Source: Glomus cerebriforme
Taxonomy: Eukaryota > Glomeromycota > Glomeromycetes > Glomerales > Glomeraceae
Assembly (NCBI GenBank): GCA_003550305.1
Contig: QKYT01000384.1
Span: forward strand, 30,903-89,547
Direction of reading: 5' to 3'
DNA length: 58,645 bases
This document shows positions 2,615 through 45,079 of the stretch, one piece after another. The notes below the pieces were generated by a model. That model was not told the DNA's origin, did no database searches, and was given only the letters and a program-made list of their open reading frames with translations. Positions within the stretch are counted from its first letter, which is position 1. Each line of letters begins with the position of its first letter. Made by a program: the position numbers and the translations under genes.

Positions 2615-2798
2615 CATTATTTTGTTAAATAAATTATATAAAATGTGTTCATAATTTTGGCTAAAATTATAGAAATTTATGGTTGTTATTATTATTATTA
2701 CACAAGAAAAAATTTGCCACATGGTTTATATTGAAAATGATTTTTATACACTCTTTCCTTAATCAAAATCCTAAATATTATCTTAATAAAATAATATA

Positions 2799-2983
2799 CA
2801 GTCATCCCTCTTTATAAGCACCTTCTATTTAGTCACACCCTCCTTATAAGCACATTTATGCTTGGCCTAAGTTACTAATAATATTATTAAAAAAACCTCC
2901 TCTATAGTTACATTACATAGGTTTTTTATAATCATACCTTTTTTTTCAGTCCTGAGGGATGTGATTATATAGGGGAATGACTG
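2799..2983. mobile_element. Mariner/pogo-like MITE with TA target duplication
   Basis: The left end CAGTCATCCCTCTTTATAA and the reverse complement of the right end (CAGTCATTCCCCTATATAA) match at 16 of 19 positions. A TA dinucleotide flanks each side (2797-2798 and 2984-2985), as expected for Tc1/mariner or pogo-type insertion. The 185-bp element has no coding capacity, so it is non-autonomous. Confidence 0.75.
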
Positions 2984-3000
2984 TATTATCCTGTTATAAT

Positions 3001-4669
3001 ATATATAACTTTTCAGTCTAATTTACACAAATTGCACATAGATATTATTCTGATAATTTTTGACAAATATGAGACATCCAAAAGTCTATATCTGGAACTA
3101 TATCTGTAGAATAATTAGGACATAGATCAATATTAGATATTTTTTAACCAGAATTAATAAGTAATATGACCAGTATTAATATAGACAAAAAGTACTGAAT
3201 ATAAAAAATATTAGATATAAATATAAGTTTAGTTTTGTTTATGTCTGTATTCATATTTTATGATAACATTGCAAATTATTTGCAATCTGTCTATTCTAAA
3301 TTAGTTCTTAAGATGATTATACTAAAATAGTATTATGCCAATTTGTAATACTTATATTATAATAGAACTCAAATATATACATTTTTTTGTTAAATTATTT
3401 TAACATGTCCTCTTTATTTACCTTAATTTTATAATCACAAAAGTATAAAAAAATGTAAATTTAATTTTTTATGCTATATACTATGCTAAAAATTCTATAA
3501 ACATTTTTTAATATATTTTACTAATATGTTTAATATTACTTTTTTTACCCAAAAATTATAAAAAACATTTCATATGGAAATATTTTGAGTTTTTTTTTTA
3601 TGATACTTGGATTCTTTTTCAATACATATCTTTAGTGATTAATAACTATAAGTTTATCAAGAAAAAAAAAATGTATTATATCTTTTTCAATACCTTAAGT
3701 AATATCAAAAATAATTATTATATATTACAAGAAGTTTGAAATATTATCTAAAATCTAATAAAAAATAAAAAAGTAAGTATAGTTAGAATAATTAATTTAA
3801 TTTGATAGGACTTATAGCTAAAGATAGGTCTGCAAATAGGTAATTGAGAAATAATTGCAATTTGCAATATTGTAAACAATTGTAAAAATCAAGATCTGAT
3901 TCTGTAATTTTGGTTAAAATTATATATTATAAACTTTATTAAAATATAATTCTACCAATATCAATACTAAAATAATAATTTTACTACCATTTGAATTCTC
4001 TTATTGAGACAAATAAAATGGTATAAATTTTATTGAAATCCAATTACTGAATAATGTTTTATCACTAATAATTTTTAAATGTTTATCTAGTTTTATCTTT
4101 ATTAATATTAATGATAGAAAGACCATTTAAATCCTCTTATAGAGATGAATTGATTAATATAATATTTATTAAAATCTAATTATTGGATTATGATTTACTT
4201 CCAAAAATTGTTAAATATTTATGTAGTTGTATTTCTATCAATATTAATGTTAAAAAGACAAATATTTATACTATTCGATTCATCTCAATGAGAGAATTCA
4301 AATGGTATAAATTTAATGAAATCTAATCACTAGATCTCAAATAATTTGTAATTTTGTATTTTATATAAATTATATGATTGAAATTGCAAAATTGTGGTTT
4401 ACTATGCATAATTTGATTCAAAATTCTGCAATATTGCAAATTTGTAAAAATAATTGTAATGTATCTTTACTTATAGCCAGATGCTTATATTTATTATCTT
4501 TATCATAGTAGGAGTCCTATAAGTATTAAAATAGATATGTTTATTATCTATACTATAGTAAATATTATGAAATATATTATTATAATTTTTAATAAAGATC
4601 TACTAATTTTAAATAAAAATTTGGCTATATATTTTTCTTTATATTAATTGCTGATATTAAAATTGATAC
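3001..4669. other. AT-rich non-coding stretch
   Basis: No gene is seen here. It is extremely AT-rich, with many short A and T runs. The only structure I find is the inverted and direct repeat set at 3987-4305, listed separately. Confidence 0.6.
3987..4305. repeat. Inverted repeat with a third, direct internal copy
   Basis: The 28-bp segment at 3987-4014 (starting CCATTTGAATTCTC) is repeated inverted at 4278-4305 with about 25 of 28 matches. A diverged direct copy (CCATTTAAATCCTC) lies at 4123-4150, and similarity continues into the following A/T-rich bases. The arrangement resembles an old MITE or a rearranged repeat. I found no clear target-site duplication. Confidence 0.5.
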
Positions 4670-12593: not shown

Positions 12594-15500
12594 TTAAAAA
12601 TGTTGACCATATGAATTATATTGATATAAATTTTCATATTCATTACTTGTAGAATTTCCAGCAGACAAATTATAATTGACTCCTCCAACACTAGCTCCAC
12701 ATTCTGGACAAGAGCTTGCTTGATTCGCTAGCCCGCAGTTTGCAATAGTATACTAACAGTAAATAATTATTAAAATTAATAGAAATTTGTGCAAAATCAT
12801 TGAATGATTTTTTTTATTTTTACTTACCGTATGACCATTTGGACACTGATACCAATGACCTAAAACATAATATGAGGTGAATTTATAGATAATTAATAAT
12901 AATAATAATAAATCAAAAAAATAGAAGGGATTTTTTAATTACCTGAACCTTGAAGTTCCACGTTCATAGCTCTAAATATTTCTAATTTCTCACTTCTCAA
13001 AATAGTCTTATCTTTATAATTTTCCAATTCTCTCACGTCATTTGATACTTGTTCCATTCGCTCAAAAAATTGTTGTTGGATAAAATCTCCATCGACTAGT
13101 CTAATTGAACTTTGCAAATTTGTAAATCTTTGTCGAATATCTTTACAAATGGTCAAAACTGATTTCTTTATCCTTGTTGCTTGCTCTGAAGCAGATTCCC
13201 TATCATTTACAATTTCATAACTTAAAATGAACCTTCCGTATGTACATTGTACTTCGATTAATTCCAATGATGCAAAAGCATGATCTCGATAATATTTAGT
13301 TTCTTTTGCAACTTCACAAATGATTTTGAGATGTTCGATTGTTGTTTCTAAAATAAAACTTGCAAATTTGATCCAAGAATTACGAGAATTTATAGATTGT
13401 TGTGAAGCAACATCAATACTTTGTCGTAAATATAATATGTTAATCTTTTCAAGCAATGCCGAATCTAATGCATGAACAACATGTTTAGCTTCCATAAACA
13501 TTGTCTTTTGAACATTTATGATCTCCAAAAATGCTTTAATATACATTCCATGACTAATAACAGGCAAAGGAATACCAACTTGTTGGAGACATTCTCTTTG
13601 TAAAGCTAATTTACGCATATAACTCGGTCCAGATAAATTAAGTGTGTCCATTTGTTCAATGAGGTTCAAAATATTGTCAATATCGGTTTCAGTAGCTGAC
13701 TTTACGCGATATAAATTTACAACAGCTGCATCAAATGCTAGTTTATATGGGGGATCTTTAGTGCCACTCATTATTAAGAATATGTCTCGATAACAAGTAA
13801 TTAAGCGAACAACATGTTTCGCCCAAAGCTTCTCATGGGTTTGAGAAATATTATGATACTCAATCTCTGCGAATTGTTGTACCGGCGTAAGTTCAGGAAT
13901 TTTTGTAGTCAATGCTTGGGATCTATGATTTTCTTTTCCTATTGATTTTTCAGATGCACTTTTTACAATTTTATCAACGAATTGGTTTCTCATAATATCC
14001 AAATTATTGACTATTTTTTCTAATCCATCTTGTACACCTTTCAATGTTCTTGTATACTTTTGTAAAAATTTCATTTTTGATGCATCAAGTGATATTTTCT
14101 TACTAACACGTCCATAACGATGAATATTGTTAATAGGACATCTGCAGTTTGGACAGCATTTAACCTTTGAAATTTCTTCTGGCGGGGCTTTTAATCCGAT
14201 CCATGTCATTTCATGTGTTTCCGGATCGGCCTTTCCAACGTAATATTTTTCAAGTTCCATATGTGAATCCATTGATTCCATAGTAAAACAATGACCACAT
14301 TCTAATACAATCAATCTATGTACATTCCAATCCGTATCTCCAAAAGTTTCTTGCATAATAATATCGACAACTTGTGATTTTAATTCATCGTTTGCACATT
14401 CTGCACAATATTCTTGTGGACCTACACGAATAAATCTAACAAATTTAGGACATGACATTTTAAAAAATTAAATGTAATATATATTATACATACATTCTTC
14501 GCCACAGAGACTAATACAACGATGTCCTAAAATTATTTCAAAATAGTAATTCTCATTTAGTTAATAATCACGAGAAAAAATTGCGACTATAAACAGCTAT
14601 CCGTTTGCTTATCGAACATCCGGTATCCGTCGGCGCTAAAACGGATTTGAATAGGATAAACGGATAATAGATATCATCACATAAATACATACCACATGAT
14701 AACAACTATATTTGTAAATTGGTTAATGAAGAATTAATAATGGTTTAATAAATAGGATAATAACAATTAAGAAAATAATAATAGCCACCTTTTGACACTG
14801 TAAATTACAAGGTAAGCGACTACAAGGGGCACCACAAGAGAGTGCACAACCACCTAACGCAGGATTATTTTTTAAAAATATTAATTGCCATAAATCGATT
14901 ATCAAAATAATTTAAACGCAGCTAACCTTGATGTTGACAAGACCAATTACATTGTTCGGCACATGCACTACCTATAATATAATTATATATTTAACAAATT
15001 ATTTATATAATTTTTGTAGAGACTACTTACATGGTTCGCCGCAATTCAACATGCATTTTGAATGAAGACACGCGTTCGAACATTGTTTTTCACAAGGTGG
15101 ACATCCTCCTTCATGACACTTAAAATAACAGCAAATTCAATTATTTCTTATGTCCAAGTTAATTTTGATTATAATAATGATACATACCATAGCTGAACAA
15201 GAATGGCCACAATAAAGAATTCGTCCACATTTTTGTGCACATTTGAGATGATGAGTCCTCTTGACATAACCTTGTTCATCAAGTATCGGTACATTACTGT
15301 TTGCTTTGATTGATTTCTTTTGACATTCATAGCATTTATTTTTACCTACAAATTATAAAAAAAAAAATATGAATTTCTCCCCGGGGATTATTTTAACACA
15401 ATAAAAAATTATAATTTACATGGATGTTCACAGCCTTCCAATATAATTCCACAATTATTTTCACAACGTAAATCTTCAATAGAAGAACCACAACGTGCCC

Positions 15501-18500: not shown

Positions 18501-21500
18501 CACCGTCCTCATTATCATCATTATCATCATTTTCACCATCCCGAGGTACATTCTTAAGAAAATCAAACATGTTATTGGATGTTGATATAGAATCATCCTG
18601 ATTGCCTTTTCCCTTTTTGGAAATATTTTTTTCAATTGCATTTTGATTGCGATAAATTGCTTGAATTAATTGTTCACGTCGTCTAAAATAAAAATATGAT
18701 ATTAAATAAATGGAGGAATATCGAAACATTCATTATTAATGTGCACACATATAAATTACCGAATATCAACACCATTAATCCATTGATCCCATATTGGCAG
18801 ATTTTTTTTTATCTTCTCTTCACCAACAACTGTCCATTCATTTTTATTTTCAGTCATACCCGTTTCATCTTGGGGTGGGTCAAACTCTTCACTGTCAATA
18901 TTTAATAAAAGTGCTGGAACATCCGGTCCATGGTTATCAGAAAATTGTAAATAATGACCAGTATATTCAACTATTAAATAATTCTTAACATCATCCCATG
19001 TCATCCACCTCCTAGAAAGCTTATCTTGCAATATTCCTGCTTCTTTTTTAATTTCTTCGAGTTTATCATAAGCTTCATATAACATAAACCCTTGATGTGA
19101 AATCTTAGGGCGGCTACGGGAAATAGTATCCAGATAAAATTCCTTTATTCTTTCAGATTTACTTCTAGCTCCTAAACGAACGATTTTTTTAATATTATTA
19201 TCGAGTAGACACTCAAGAAATTGATCCAACGCATGATTCGTATAACAAATGGTAAGAATTGGCCCAATTGAAGTGGCTTTTCGATTTTTTTCAGAAAGTA
19301 AAACTTTCATAAGTTCTACACCGACATAAGTTTTTCCAGTTCCCGGTGGACCTTGAATTGAAAGCATTTTGGAAATTAAATTGATATAAGGAACATTCAT
19401 TTAACTATAATGAACTAATGATAATTACCTTCGATCAAAGCAATTTCTCTAGACAAAGCATCAACTAATGCTCTAGCTTGTGTTTCGTCAAGAGTACTAA
19501 CATCTGGAATTGTTAATTTTTTGATCGCATTTTCTCTTGAAGTGTCATCTTGTACATTCAAAAATAAGGAATCATAAGGATTTTTTAATAATATTGATAA
19601 ATCAAAATGAAATCTGGGAGCTCTCGTATATAACGGAGTTGCTACTCGAGTAATTTGTCTACTTCTCTCGAGCGATGATATCAAATATTGCCGAAATGGA
19701 ACATCAGAAGGATTAGTAGCCTGCAATGTTTTTAATATATGATTGTAAGATTCAAAGTATACGCCCGTCGATTCAACCATAAATCTCTTAATACGAGCAG
19801 GATGATTTCTTCCCATAGAAATATCTTCTAAAACAATAGGATAAATTGAAGATTCTATGAAATGAACATCGATCATAGCTTCAGTTTCATACCGAGACAG
19901 AAGTTTCTCATTTTTTTCAACGACAACACCAAAATAAAGAGAATGAGTTGGCATTGGATTTGTTTCATTATTATTGAGTGAATTTTCATTTTGCCAAAGG
20001 ACACAAATTAAACTACCACTCATTAATTTCTTTGATCGTTCCCAATAATGAAGACGATTTTTTTCATCTTTGGCCGATTTTATCTTTGGTGGACTAAATT
20101 AATTTAAAATTAATATTTATATATTTTTTTAATAATAAAAACAACTTTTTACATACGTGAACGCAACACGTGAAATAAATCCACGATATTTATGTACATT
20201 AATGGAAACAAATCTAATGTTTGCGTAGACATTAAGGTCTCCACTAATATCACCCTTATCATATCGAAATCTACCACCCTCTTCACGTAATTTTTTAACT
20301 TGAGATTTGTTTTTATCCAAATCCATCAAGAAGCGTGAAATACCTAATCTAATCGGATTAAGCATATCTTCTCTCAATAATCTGAATTGCATATCAAGAA
20401 GGCGTGCAATCCCATCAGGTAAAGAATCTGGATGATCTAACATAAACGAAGGCAAAGACGGTTCACGTGATGCCAAAATTTCATCCTTTGTAGGAATTAT
20501 AGATATTTTGCTTATTTCTAGGAAGTCATTATCATGTCTTGGACCGTCTTTTGACAATTCGCCTTTTGATTCAAATAATATGATCAATTAAAGAGAATTA
20601 ATAATAAAAACAAAATAATTTTGCGAAGCATTAATAGATTTGAAACTAACCCGGTGGATCATACAATCTTTCAAGTTCATTCATTTTTGCCATTTTACGA
20701 CTTTCGAGAACAATTTCAGAAGTTACATCATTTTTAGCTTCTCTTTTCGCTGCAGCAAGAGATCTACGCCCGTCCGATAAAACATAATTTAATCTTGTCA
20801 TTTCATGGTCTAAGATATCAAAATAATATTGCCTTTTTTCGGGATCTGAGACCAACGCATCTTCGGATCCAGAACTTGATTGATGTTCAGCAAGCAAAGA
20901 ATTCTTCCAGGCATTCGATGCATTTTGTAGTCGTTGCACAATTTTGTGAACAGTTTCATTAACGGAGGCTTCTTTGATTCGACAAAGTAATTCATTTAAA
21001 AAACGTGCAAGAATTAAGAATGGTTGGCCAAATGTTGAAGGAATAAAAATATCAGGATCATTTTTTAATAATTTGTCTTTGTTAACTCTTCTATCTTGAA
21101 GTGAATTTCTTCTAACTAATTCATCCAAACATCTCATGATATTATCATGAAAGAATGTTTCAATATAGGAATATACAACTGAATATATGGTATTAAGTTG
21201 TTTTTCCAAAGTTGAACCGCGTACCTTCAAAAGATATAAGTGAAGTTTGATTAAATATATATGTATAAAAAAAAGACATAAAATTTAACTAGCATTACGA
21301 TACCCCATGGCGAATCAATAGTGCAAGAAAAGGAAGAATAACGCTTTGAAACGAAGCAAATTTTTTTTCGAGCCCAGCATCAACAGACATGTTGTACTAT
21401 AACAAAATAATAAGACAAGTCAATTTTATAGAAATTTTTTTTTTTTTTGATACATTTCAGTTCGAAATTATTTATTTGATTAAATAAAAAAATACCTGAC

Positions 21501-21957
21501 ATATTTCTCGAATGCGGGAAATTCCCATTTCAGGATTTCCCAATTGCTCTACAAGGGTTTCTACTGCCACACCAGTTTGTTTATCAGCAGCCAACAAACA
21601 TGATGTGATAAACCATCTTATTTGTTGTTGGTCACGAAATTCTTTCCGGATCAAGCCACGCCACGCACCTTCCAATCTATCACCAGAAACAAAAACAAGC
21701 TTGTCACTTCCATCATATGAAAGTGCTGAGGATTGTAAATTTTCCAATAGCACATTATATTGTTTAGCTTTAACTTGCTCTAATTCTTCATTAGATATTC
21801 CTTCGCGATTAAGTCCACGTCCACGACCTACACCACGTCCTCTACTACCACGAGGAATGGAGAACGGATTACCCCCGCGGTTACCACGTTGAGAAGTGCT
21901 TTGAGACCCCTCGCCCGGACCAGTCCCTCCTATCGAATTCCTTATATTATGTGACAT
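12594..21957 (-). CDS. ZNFX1/Hrr1-like SF1 RNA helicase with NFX1 and RZ zinc fingers
   Basis: A UPF1-like superfamily 1 helicase; relatives ZNFX-1 (worm) and Hrr1 (fission yeast) act in small-RNA silencing. From residue 1: an RGG/Gly-Arg-rich tail ([11 protein letters not shown]), helical armadillo-like region, then helicase motifs: I GPPGTGKT (near 19340), II VEEAGE (17835), [11 protein letters not shown] (17750), [10 protein letters not shown] (16760), [11 protein letters not shown] (16640). An Asp/Glu/Asn-rich stretch (about 18365-18560) lies between motifs I and II. A Cys/His-rich NFX1 finger array spans about 14480-16230 (for example CHEGGCPPC near 15100). Then come a CGHCF-type cluster, a long helical region (12950-14400) and a C-terminal RZ finger ([10 protein letters not shown], then [10 protein letters not shown]). 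Many short introns; total roughly 2,300 residues, not summed exactly. The exon junction near 14450-14500 is uncertain, so a separate 3' gene starting MSCPKFVRF cannot be fully excluded, but finger order and the RZ end fit one ZNFX1 protein. Argonaute lies divergently upstream. Confidence 0.88.
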
Positions 21958-39424: not shown

Positions 39425-42400
39425 ATGCGTTATAAATTATTTATCTATCTGTTATCACCTTTGATAATAATATTACAATCATATGTTGTAGCGGAATATC
39501 GTTCGCTTGATGGTTCCAACAATAATGCTGCAATACCAAATGCTGGAACTCCTAACACTCCTTATCTTCGTCTAAAACCAAACTATACAAACTATGCTGG
39601 AAATAATGATGAAATGCTTCCTTCACCAGGGAATTACATTCTTCTTAATGAAGTATCTCCAAAATGTAAAGACTTATTACCAAAAGGAATGTTTCCTTTA
39701 CCAAGATGTATAAGTGATGTATTAGATGGTTATCAGACAACAGCAAAAGATGCATTTTCTTGGATTTTGCTTGACTCATTTAAATCAAAAAGAAAATCTT
39801 CTCACATGGTATGCACTACCTATACAATTTTACTGATGAATCTATTAATAAAAAATTTTGGTTTATTAGATAACTTTTTGGGGACAGTTTATAGCCTTTG
39901 ACATTTCATCATCCCAATCAACAGGAGAAATTTTACCTACTGGAATTATCATTCCAAGCGACGATGCTGAATATCTTTCCTCCATAACGGGAACGACAAC
40001 TCCTCTTAATGAGGTAAAATGTTCACGTGTTTAAATGCTGCGCCATTTCGTTGATACGTATCTGTTTTATATCTTATTTTCTTTAGAATGCCTTGTCATT
40101 TAATCGATCGAATCCAGAATCTCGTCAAGGTTCTAATGGAGTAACCTCGTTTGTTGACGCAAGCACTATTTATGGAATCGATCAAACTAAACTTGACCAA
40201 GAATTACGCGACTTTGGAAACAGGGGCAAATTGAAGTTACGCTACACGGATACTCCAGATGGTCAATTTGGGTATCCACCAATAGGTAACATAAAATGTT
40301 ATGCGGCTAATTTTTCGAAACCAACGAATAATACGTAATTCTTCTATAAATTGTAGATGCAAATGGATATTATATTTTAGGATTCGCACCAAAACGAAGT
40401 GCAAATATGTTTACACATATGATTTATATTGTATTTCTTAGAGAGCATAATCGTCGATGTGATGAATTGTACGTAATACATCAAGATGAATGGGATGATG
40501 AAAGGTATTTCCAAGAAGCAAGAAGATGGGTTATTGCTCTTATTCAAAAGATAACATACAGAGAATATCGTAAGTGAAAGTATTCAACTAATTCTAATTA
40601 TAACGTAATATTTCAAATTAATTTATTTTTCTATAGTTAGTATTGTTTTAGGCACTCCTCTTTTACCATATACCAATTATAATCCGAATCTCGTACCAGG
40701 TACAAATTTAAAAAGTTTTTAATATATATAATATAATTGATTTACTATTCTAACGAATATTCATAACCTATATTAAAAAGGGTTAGACACCTTTTTTACA
40801 ACTGTAACAATGAAATACGGCCATTCTGAAGTCAGGTACATTGTATCTTTTATTAGGTTAATATTAATACTTATTTTCCTAAAATTTCAATTTTTTTTTT
40901 TTTTTTTTTTTTATTAGTGATTCTTATACAATTGTTGATAATGATGGGCAAGTATTGACCACGCTACCATTGAACGCAATTCAAACACAAGGCCTATTGG
41001 AGAACTTTAATATTCCTGTTTTAGCTTTGTCCCTTTCTTTACAAAGGTAAATATATTATCCATTCTTCGCTTCAAAATTTATAACTTATCACGTGATTTG
41101 TTTATAATAAAGACAAGAGGAAGTAGACATATTTTATTCTGAAATGATGAGAGGTTTCAGATTTTCCTCCACTGGTGATTTTAATGATATCGCTAGTGTT
41201 GATCATCTTCGAGTTCGTGATCGAGGAATTCCTTTGTATAATGATGTTAGAAATGCTTATGGGTTATCACGAGCCGAAAAATTTTCGGATATTACGAGCA
41301 ATACGGTAGTTCAAGCGCGTTTACAAGAAATTTACTCAACTGTGGATTCTGTTGAAGCATTAGCTGGAGCTCTCGCCGAAGATCATCTTGTGGGTTCAAA
41401 TTTTGGACCTTTAATACATACAAGCATGAAAGAACAAGTAAATTAATTGTCAATTTTTTTTAAAAAATTATATTTGTTTTTTTTTATTTACATTCTTATT
41501 TTATTTTAGTGGGGATTAATTCGCGATTCTGATAGATTTTGGTACGAATCTCCGGGAAGTGGATTTACTTTAGATGAAATTAATCAGATTAATAATATCA
41601 CATGGCGTGATGTTATTACAAAGAACATTCCTGCTAGTTTCTCAATCCCTGGAAATCTTTGGTTTGTTCAACCCACTTCAACATTTGGAACCACAAACAT
41701 TATTGAAGATCCTGCTCCAAATTATCCAAGATTAAATTTCTTAAGATTAAGCAATGTTTATGAAATTCGATGGAAAATTGACGGAAATAATATTCAATTT
41801 CTTCTTACCATGCTAAGTAATAATGCATGGTTTGGTCTGGGATTTAATTCCGATGGTATTATCTATCATTATAAATTTTTTTTTTTAGAAAGTCTTTTTT
41901 AATGTTAGATCTTATTCTAAATAATTTAATTAATTTTTTTCAATTTAATTAAGATAATGGTATGATAGATGCCGATATAGTGTTGGCACGAACGATTGAC
42001 TTCGCAAATATTGAAATAGCTAATTATAAATCTGCTGGATATCAACCGCCAGTTAAAGATGAAGAAAACCAATTCATTAAGTTATTAAAATTCAATGTCT
42101 CGAGTGTTTCTACACAAGTTGAATTCAGTCGTCCATTAGCTGCACCAAACAGAAGACCTATTACAAACAATCCTACAACTTGTAAGTAAATTTTAAATTA
42201 ATCTTTCTAATTTATAAATTTTATTTCCAATATTCTGATATTCATGATATTTAATATAGTGATTTATGCTTGGAATCCGGATAGCAATGGACTTTCATAT
42301 CATGGAGGAAATCGTGGAAGTTTGAAAATAAATTTCTTTTCTGCAACAATTGCACAATCCGCTGAAACTAAAAACAGGTTAACAAGATTGTTACATGGTG

Positions 42401-45079
42401 TGGCAATGTTCATAACTTGGAGGTTTGTTTTTATTAACTTCTCTTTTTGTTTAATCTTTATTTAATCTTTATATTAAACTACTTTTATTTTTATAAATGT
42501 AGTGTTCTATTTCCATGTAAAAATAATTAAAATGATTATTATTCATGTTCTTAAAAATATAATTTTTGATTATTCAACTTGATAATCTATTCTACCGAAT
42601 TTTATAGTATCAGTTTTTATCGTTCGTTATTGGAAACACGTGGATACCTATTTATTTCAACATCGAAATATGCAAATTGTTGGTGGAGTTTCCGTGTCAA
42701 CCTTCGGAGCTGCAGCAATGGCAACTGCAGATTATCAGCAAAGATCAATTCATGGACTGTATGATCATCATCAATTATTATAAGAATCCATTCCAAGACG
42801 TGACTTTTAATTAAATATATTATATTTAGGGTTGGCATATCAATTTATTCAATCGTATTCGCTCAAATTGGATTAGGTTTTATAGCTATTTGGGGTCTCG
42901 CTCACCTTGAATCAGCAAATCGTGGTATAATGCGCGGAATCAGAATGGCGCACTTTATATTAGGAACTTCGTTGATTGTTTGTAAATAAATTTTAGTTAT
43001 GTACAGTATATATGATTTATTCTATAAAAAAACATTGGTCATCTTTTTTTATTTTTAGGATTAATATTTATCTTGGAATTGTTCAATTTGGTGGAGATAT
43101 GATGTGGAAAATCACATATCTAATATGGATAGGTTGTTCTGTTTATAATATTCTTATTAAATAAGATACATTATTTACATCTATTTTTTATAGGTCTTAC
43201 GTTTATAGCATTTGTTGGAGGAGAATATTGGTATAATTATAGAAATGGAAATTTCTTCTATCGTAAAAATGATCTTGAAATCAAAAAAGGGCGCATTCAT
43301 GAGAAAATTCCCGCCGAGGTTTATGAAAGATTGCCGGTCATCACTTGGAATGTAAGTCTAATACTTAAGATTAAATTTTTAAATTTCTTATTAGATAAGG
43401 TAAAAAAAAAATTTTTTCTTAGGATGTTAATATGAGAATTGCAAGTGGTGCTCAATTGGTTGTTGCTGAAGGATTATTGTTTGATATTCGAAAATGGGTA
43501 AAATAAATTATTTAATATGTTATGCACAAAAAATTTTTTTCTTTTCAGAAATTTTAATTTATTATTTTTATTTTTAGATAAAAATTCATCCTGGGGGTGC
43601 AAAAATTTTACAACGCGTTATTGGAACTGATATTACAAACGATTTTTTCCTAGATACTTCAAACCAACCAAAATTTACATTTGGTGAAATTGATCAAAAA
43701 GATAGAGACAAAAATAATTCAACAAGTCAATATAGTAGTACACTTAAAAAATATGATGATGCACCCAATTTTGATGATTCTAAACAAAAGAGAACAATAT
43801 TAAGAACAGGCTCTATAGCAAATGTTTTCGATGTAATTAATAGTTCATCATTTAAAAATTCGAGAGTAGCAACACATCATCACTCAATATTTGCAACAAC
43901 AAAATTGGCATCTATGGTTATAGCTAGAGTAGATGAATATACTGACAGTCCACAAAAAATCCAACAATCTAAAGTTGAAAATGAACATGTTCCACATATT
44001 TTTAGGAGATATATTTTAGTTAATAAGGAAATTGTATCAAGAAACGATGCCCAGAGGCCTGTAGTCAAACTTACATTTCAAGTTATTAATGTTAATGAAC
44101 AATTACCAGAATTCTTGCCAGGAGATTATATTGAAATATTTAGTCATATTAAAGGACAAGTGTTATTACGATCTTATACACCACTTCAATCTGACAAAGA
44201 TAAATGTTTCTCAATTATAATTAGGATTTATGAAGAAGGTCTAATGTCTAGGCATTTGGTAAATAATTTATATTTATATATTTAATACATCTTTATTATG
44301 TTATATTGAACAAAAATTTAATGCTTTTTATTTATATTTTCAAGATGAAACAATTAGTTGGATTTGAAATTAAAGTTCGTGGTCCATTTGATATTAGCAA
44401 ACGCATAACAGCAAATCTTAATTCTCCAAATTCAAGTAAATATTACGAACCATCTCCAAAACATATATTATTAAATCCCTTATCAAATGATGGATGTTGG
44501 GATGTATTATTTATGATTGCAGGAGGAACTGGATTAACCCCTATGTTACAATTAGTAAGTTTAATAACATGAAAATTTGTTTTTATCACGTAAAAATTCT
44601 AATTTATTATCTATTAATTATTTTAATAGATAAAATATCATTTAAGTTATGCAAACCAATTCCCTAATAGAAACTTCAAATTATTTTTATTATTTGCAAA
44701 TGAAACAATATCAGACATATTTTATTTTAAGTATTTAGATCATTCAGTAGCAACAAGTAATGGAAAATTAAAGATAGCATATTTACTTACAAGACCACCA
44801 CCAGATTGGGAAGAATTAAGTGGACATATAAATGAAGATATATTATGTCAATGGTTTTCAAAAAATCATATACCAGATATTTCTTCACTAATATCCGAAA
44901 ATGAAAGTCCTATTCTTGAAAATAGCGATTATGTTAAAAGATATATGCAAGCTTTAATACAAGATTCTAGACATATTAAATTGGTTACATGTGGACCTCC
45001 TTTAATGATTGATTCTGTTGAAGAATCTTTAAATAATATTGGATTCCCTGTTAATGATAAAGCTATTTTTATTAGATAA
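39425..45079 (+). CDS. Fusion of haem peroxidase, DOMON, cytochrome b561, cytochrome b5 and b5 reductase
   Basis: Twenty exons join in frame to 1,400 residues. Order: signal peptide (1-23); animal-type haem peroxidase (about 25-560) with WGQF at 132-135, calcium-loop TSFVDAS (196-202), catalytic Arg256 and proximal His349 (KYGHS); DOMON (about 580-730, WFGLGFNSD, IDADIV); b561 helices with four candidate haem His (RLLHG, LFQHR, SIHGL, RMAHF); cytochrome b5 with HPGG (His958) and a distant HHHS (about 1055); FAD domain RSYTPL (about 1152); NAD(P)H domain GGTGLTP (about 1241) and CGPP (about 1372). Inferred role: NAD(P)H electrons cross the membrane through b5 and b561 to DOMON and the outward peroxidase head. 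Odd points: distal His and both haem-linking acids of the peroxidase are replaced, exon 12 is 14 nt, and the intron after 42970 needs a weak GTTGAT donor. The individual domains are certain; one continuous protein is strongly supported by frame closure. Confidence 0.9.

Follow-up and report, generated by a model that had tools for sequence, protein, structure and literature searches.

A peroxidase-fold head fused to a predicted transmembrane electron wire in Glomus cerebriforme and related fungi

A 58,645-nucleotide stretch of Glomus cerebriforme contig QKYT01000384.1, termed the window here, contains a predicted gene in which a peroxidase-fold head, a DOMON domain, a cytochrome b561 core, a cytochrome b5 module and a b5-reductase tail are joined in a single chain. 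Comparison of this protein with its relatives was consistent with a chain that moves electrons from cytosolic NADH outward and in which the head is a terminal site rather than an ordinary peroxidase, a reading that was given a probability of about 0.5. This reading was based on the conservation of the putative redox ligands from DOMON to reductase (the wire) and on a head with an altered distal site and a fixed proximal site.

Module order and ligands of the wire

The ATG and stop codons of the gene, which agree with the limits given in a first-pass annotation of the letters of the window, enclose one predicted reading frame through the spliced exons. Pfam searches of the spliced protein detected An_peroxidase (PF03098), DOMON (E = 1.4e-17), Cyt-b5 (residues 933 to 982, E = 1.2e-6) and FAD_binding_6, followed by NAD_binding_1 (residues 1243 to 1337). 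The b561 match was below the Pfam cutoff in the window protein and above it in two of six relatives scanned (P0031 and P0080); hydrophobic segments between DOMON and b5 hold the four b561 haem-ligand His residues. These matches and residues confirmed the module order proposed in the first-pass annotation, with all modules in the one frame. NCBIfam searches produced reductase matches alone, all far below cutoffs, and a sequence search of the DOMON and b561 portion alone against solved structures produced no match up to an E value of 1. Residue numbers refer to the first gene model of 1405 residues, which differs from the 1400-residue model after residue 850.

Three overlapping protein searches produced 21, 77 and 31 matches, comprising 111 distinct proteins, of which seven were dropped. 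The resulting alignment of 105 rows (the window protein and 104 relatives) contained 83 rows from Glomeromycotina (window included), 17 from Mortierellomycotina, 2 from Endogonales (Jimgerdemannia), 2 from Tribonema minus and P0080. Conservation was counted over those of the 102 fungal rows with letters in the relevant column. The candidate DOMON ligands Met623 (76/78) and His710 (69/71) were nearly invariant, as were the b561 residues His741 (64/64), His773 (68/69), His803 (70/70) and His846 (61/62). Both b5 residues, His963 (88/88) and His1061 (95/95), and Arg1157 and Tyr1159 of the FAD motif (91/91) were present in every row counted; His1061, located past the end of the Pfam Cyt-b5 match, is the putative second b5 ligand. 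The reductase tail has the FAD RxYT motif, a GGTG motif and the Asp of NADH-type enzymes (Asp1285), and in b5 reductases an Asp at this position favours NADH. The fused reductase suggests NADH rather than ascorbate as the donor.

A DOMON fused to a b561 core, with a Met/His pair and two b561 His pairs, is the arrangement seen in the CYBDOM proteins of plants (HYP1/CRR). Outward electron transfer has been demonstrated for HYP1, in which DOMON residues M90/H174 and b561 pairs H211/H278 and H245/H314 pass electrons from ascorbate (PMC10784544; this and the other papers cited are drawn on for the excerpts available). HYP1 is headless and has cytosolic ascorbate as its donor, whereas the window protein has a built-in b5 and NADH-type reductase. 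By analogy, electrons would pass from cytosolic NADH to FAD and cytochrome b5 (His963/His1061), from there to the inner (His773/His846) and then the outer (His741/His803) b561 haem, and through the DOMON haem (Met623/His710) to the outside, the b5 and reductase standing in for the ascorbate of HYP1. The topology, haem loading, flow direction and electron acceptor of this scheme are predicted, and the outward direction envisaged in the first-pass annotation was retained as a prediction on the strength of the conserved ligands and the HYP1 analogy.

AlphaFold2 models were examined for Podila P0105, spanning head to b5, and for Dentiscutata P0023, spanning DOMON to reductase (mean predicted local distance difference test score [pLDDT] of 74.5 and predicted template modelling score [pTM] of 0.61). 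Five long helices were present between the DOMON strands and b5 in both, and the tail of P0023 matched b5 reductases. All of the VIA-align rows listed were filled by reductases, and the DOMON and b561 folds were barely probed there.

The rebuilt head

The distal motif GQxxDHD of peroxidases (as defined in PMC4420034) reads GQFIAFD in the window protein, with Phe138 in place of the catalytic His, Ala137 in place of the ester Asp and the calcium-ligand Asp139 retained. None of 57 fungal rows (44 Glomeromycotina, window included, 11 Mortierellomycotina and 2 Endogonales) had His in the distal column, which was occupied by Phe (29 rows), Met (10), Leu (8), Tyr (8) or Ser (2), and the ester Asp was absent from all 57. 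The RxxE motif, supplying the catalytic Arg and ester Glu, was absent from 64 of the 68 rows bearing the downstream REHN-type motif, the window and Tribonema proteins among them; RxxE matches in the other four, all Podila or Mortierella, were probably out of register. The distal His was also missing from the seven other five-module copies of the G. cerebriforme genome and, unlike in these copies, was retained in two peroxidase-family genes of the same genome (L029 and L030) that are devoid of wire modules in readable sequence, the region downstream of L029 being partly N-masked.

The proximal side was fixed. The proximal His was present in 68/68 rows (67/67 without P0083, in which the frame seems broken and the match looks spurious), and the Asn that usually partners it, found in the three solved relatives aligned, was replaced by Asp in 73/73. 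Calcium-site residues were mostly retained (D139 in 51/57, T196 in 69/71, D200 in 71/71 and S202 in 52/71).

Judged by these residues, the head is unlikely to act as a peroxidase, and the extracellular peroxidase domain of the first-pass annotation was not sustained in the catalytic sense. As the distal His is missing, the 'heme peroxidase' name of some public family records is doubtful as a statement of function. The invariance of the proximal His and of its Asp partner makes it most likely that haem binding is retained by the head, the distal side of which is mostly apolar. Such a head, with no acid-base His for peroxide cleavage and with haem on a fixed proximal side, would be a terminal redox or docking site handing electrons to O2 or metal ions rather than cleaving peroxide.

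Table 1. Positions in the window of the predicted gene, its modules and candidate ligand residues
Feature	Position	Strand	Basis or remark
Whole predicted gene	39425..45079	+	20 exons, giving 1400 residues when donor 42971 is used
Predicted signal peptide, residues 1-23	39425..39493	+	One hydrophobic stretch in hydropathy scan
Peroxidase-fold head, An_peroxidase, residues 25-548	39497..41641	+	Intron-split; Pfam, E 6e-91
Distal motif GQFIAFD	39882..39902	+	Sequence comparison with peroxidase GQxxDHD
Proximal haem-ligand His349 (YGHSE)	40822..40824	+	Fungal-row conservation
Asp426, replacing the usual Asn partner of proximal His	41201..41203	+	Fungal-row conservation
DOMON, residues 586-700	41753..42273	+	Intron-split; Pfam
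Candidate DOMON haem ligand Met623	41962-41964	+	Column conservation
Candidate DOMON haem ligand His710	42301..42303	+	Conservation; pairs with Met by analogy with HYP1 M90/H174
b561 core, five predicted helices	42394..43254	+	His conservation; models of two relatives
b561 His741	42394-42396	+	Conservation
b561 His773	42661-42663	+	Conservation
b561 His803	42751-42753	+	Conservation
b561 His846	42951-42953	+	Conservation
Splice junction in fourth b561 helix	42971-43058	+	Donor 42982 out of frame; donor 42971 in frame
Cytochrome b5 module	43346..43883	+	Intron-split; Pfam
b5 ligand His963 (HPGG)	43587-43589	+	Conservation
Putative b5 ligand His1061	43881-43883	+	Conservation
FAD-binding part of b5 reductase, residues 1110-1201	44028..44389	+	RSYT motif at 1157; intron 44259-44344
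NAD-binding part, residues 1243-1389	44513..45028	+	GGTG motif; intron 44555-44629
Asp1285 of NAD-binding part	44714-44716	+	Asp in 89/89 fungal rows

Distribution of the family and copies in the genome

All five modules, each at least 60% filled, were present in 46 of the 105 aligned rows, namely 37 from Glomeromycotina (window included), 8 from Mortierellomycotina and 1 from Tribonema. The remaining rows consisted of incomplete records, gene models that are split or shortened, and headless wires such as P0080 and P0082. What had been presented as a single odd protein is instead a family, with members in Glomeromycotina, Mortierellomycotina and Endogonales, a relative in Tribonema and eight copies in the G. 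cerebriforme genome. A hydrophobic N terminus was present in most of 12 relatives inspected.

Trees of the head and of the wire were each constructed from 38 of the 46 five-module rows. Branches with a Shimodaira-Hasegawa-like approximate likelihood ratio test (SH-aLRT) value of at least 95 numbered 24 in the head tree and 27 in the wire tree; 21 of these were common to both and one pair was in conflict, indicating that head and wire have mostly travelled together in fungi.

The yellow-green alga Tribonema minus has a headless (P0082) and a headed (P0084) chain, both highly divergent from the fungal ones and located on a very long branch in the head and wire trees. The Tribonema head has His in both the distal and proximal columns and Pro in the Asp column, the latter perhaps being misaligned. 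This headed chain may share a common origin with the fungal chain or may be a separate fusion in the alga. P0080 (976 amino acids) is a headless protein with b561, b5 and reductase modules; its DOMON was recognised solely in the alignment, and an SH3-like insert is located close to the NAD-binding part.

Searches of the genome (112.5 Mb, 1117 contigs) with An_peroxidase, and by tblastn against nine stretches, detected the eight five-module copies, consisting of the window copy and seven others that match full-length relatives from head to tail by tblastn. At each of these seven, the final peroxidase match was followed by a Cyt-b5 match ∼1.6 to 2.0 kb further downstream; the genome Cyt-b5 search (23 matches) missed the intron-split b5 of the window itself and is, hence, an incomplete census. 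Two contigs contained two copies each, ∼9 to 10 kb apart (L033/L034 on C301 and L035/L036 on C255), which suggests local duplication.

As to the two genes with an intact distal His, L029 (C306:146000-154500, frames between 1102 and 3522) has the distal motif FFGQLINHDLED, GDYRASEN as RxxE, a hydrophobic N terminus and a proximal YGHS. It is apparently a stand-alone haem peroxidase, and these motifs may mark it as the genuine extracellular peroxidase of G. cerebriforme. L030 (C282:22000-30500, about 2750 to 4620) has a distal IITHDLF, with THD retained; we take it to resemble fungal fatty-acid dioxygenases, hence our label of 'Ppo-like'.

Known systems and alternative explanations

The analogy to dual oxidases drawn in the first-pass annotation was borne out for the order of parts: as in DUOX1/2, an N-terminal extracellular peroxidase-fold head, a membrane haem core and a cytosolic flavin/NAD(P)H tail are present in one chain, and in neither case is the head a classic peroxidase. 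The window protein differs in having DOMON-b561-b5-b5R in place of the NOX ferric-reductase core. No ferric-reductase transmembrane domain was detected in it by a Pfam scan with E values up to 0.1, and the scan detected no EF-hands between head and core, where DOMON is located. The losses in the head are also opposite, as DUOX lost the proximal His (PMC4420034) whereas the window family lost the distal and retained the proximal one. Membership of the DUOX family was ruled out by the membrane core and the missing EF-hands, and the head is nearer to peroxinectin. By sequence, the solved chain closest to the window head was Dictyostelium peroxinectin A (6erc, E = 1.5e-52; DUOX1, 3.1e-24), which was also the best Foldseek match of the P0105 model (E = 1.8e-29, TMt 0.84), human DUOX1 being third (1.6e-25). 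The head shares with peroxinectin and the peroxidase-cyclooxygenase superfamily the fold and most calcium-site residues and differs in the absence of distal His, ester Asp and RxxE, in the Asp for proximal Asn and in its fusion to a membrane wire.

The tail has the fold and motifs of NADH-cytochrome b5 reductases (CYB5R3 and Physarum 2eix) but here forms the end of a membrane chain. FRD-superfamily ferric reductases of Naegleria and oomycetes share an extracellular DOMON but have another membrane haem domain, and no peroxidase head is mentioned for them in the available part of PMC3591440; peroxidase-like heads on DUOX and DOMON on ferric reductases are described there, with no mention in that part of both on one chain. 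Animal-type haem peroxidases of Mucoromycota have been described with a P450 domain (PMC10629195, in part). The modules are thus individually known; no report of the five-module architecture, or of its combination of a conserved wire and rebuilt head, was found among the papers listed in searches of the open-licence part of PubMed Central.

The main rival to a terminal site is an NADH-driven wire for outward ferric or cupric reduction, its DUOX1-like head being devoid of haem and without an electron role, as a scaffold, dimer or adhesion module; about one chance in three seems appropriate for it. In its favour, distal His and RxxE are lost, the nearest solved head is that of peroxinectin A, peroxinectins being described as cell-adhesive (PMC4420034), the human DUOX1 head has no haem (PMC7794343) and HYP1, itself headless, reduces ferric chelates (PMC10784544). 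A haem-free scaffold would, however, have no need of the fixed proximal His and Asp, and it was precisely the proximal His that DUOX lost. A working peroxidase fed electrons by the wire is improbable: the full An_peroxidase match, the retention of proximal His and most calcium-site residues and the distal-column His of the Tribonema relative are in its favour, but the distal His, ester Asp and RxxE are lost across the fungal rows as described above.

The gene structure bears on two further explanations. Two neighbouring genes, a secreted peroxidase and a b5 reductase, might have been read as one, and some related records are indeed tail-only or head-and-DOMON-only. Exons 9, 11 and 19, however, span the peroxidase/DOMON, DOMON/b561 and b5/reductase borders, respectively, each border lying within one exon, and exon 17 connects the final helix of b561 with the beginning of b5, which speaks against two genes. 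G+C content was 33% in exons and 17% in introns (26.6% for the whole window). These border-crossing exons, together with the full-length relatives in the alignment and the genome, led to the rejection of a two-gene split, the least probable of the explanations considered.

Alternatively, the window copy may be recently broken, with truncation in the fourth b561 helix and with intact relatives, which was considered unlikely but well short of negligible. The strongest-looking donor (42982) shifts the frame, with a stop at residue 856, and a frame-restoring 4-nt micro-exon of the first gene model (42997-43000) was dropped because it would require an upstream intron of 15 nt; the dropped micro-exon affects only residues around 851 to 857 of the window protein used in most analyses. 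Donor 42971, the sole canonical in-frame option found, produces an 88-nt intron and a fourth b561 helix six residues shorter than that of Rhizophagus irregularis, the orthologue and several paralogues having the longer helix; in five of seven other copies in the genome, the intron is located after ..AW or ..SL of this helix, directly before NI. Against breakage are this in-frame donor, the stop-free downstream exons and the 83% end-to-end identity with the R. irregularis orthologue (P0001, 1427 residues), and an assembly error is another possible cause of the junction. This identity also suggests that the source fungus is related to Rhizophagus and is, hence, likely to be a root symbiont. Going by its sequence, three states of the window copy are conceivable: an intact gene with a shorter helix, a misassembly or a recent break.

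Several points weigh against an outward wire with a terminal head. The junction at 42971-43058 may mean that the window copy is truncated. Haem in the head is deduced from two residues, and the human DUOX1 head has the same fold and no haem; the distal column is blank in 45 of the 102 fungal rows and the proximal column in 34. The head-bearing P0105 model was of modest confidence (mean pLDDT of 70.2, pTM of 0.53), and domain packing was, therefore, not taken from it. Several relatives (such as P0024, P0037 and P0046) are annotated as shorter tail-only proteins, indicating that some gene models have been split. In the head tree, Mortierellomycotina grouped with one of the two mycorrhizal clades (99); in the wire tree, they fell outside both (mycorrhizal rows united at 90), a placement that differs below an SH-aLRT of 95.

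A more specific form of the terminal-site reading is a speculative one, given slightly less than one chance in four: the chain could be early fungi's own dual oxidase, with the head as a terminal oxidase haem making superoxide or H2O2 outside the hypha, multiplied by arbuscular mycorrhizal fungi for the root interface. Loss of the distal His and provision of an Asp partner for the proximal His would then result in H2O2 being produced and not consumed. To our knowledge, the exchange of electrons, iron and reactive oxygen by arbuscular mycorrhizal fungi with soil and root cells is poorly understood, and the family is a conserved, multi-copy, membrane-spanning candidate for such exchange with a complete predicted wire. 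It is also a natural experiment, a peroxidase fold without its catalytic His, that complements the dual oxidases, in which the opposite residue was lost from a head with a role termed obscure (PMC4420034).

Elsewhere in the window, positions 12935-14458 of the minus strand contain an uninterrupted 507-residue open reading frame (ORF) with Cys/His pairs near the N terminus and no Pfam match. A run of minus-strand ORFs extends over 18756-21957. No Pfam match was obtained for 19415-20023, 20646-21230 and 21472-21957 (20129-20587 being outside the scan), while 18756-19400 matches helicase-type AAA_11; the run is perhaps composed of pieces of one intron-bearing helicase gene.

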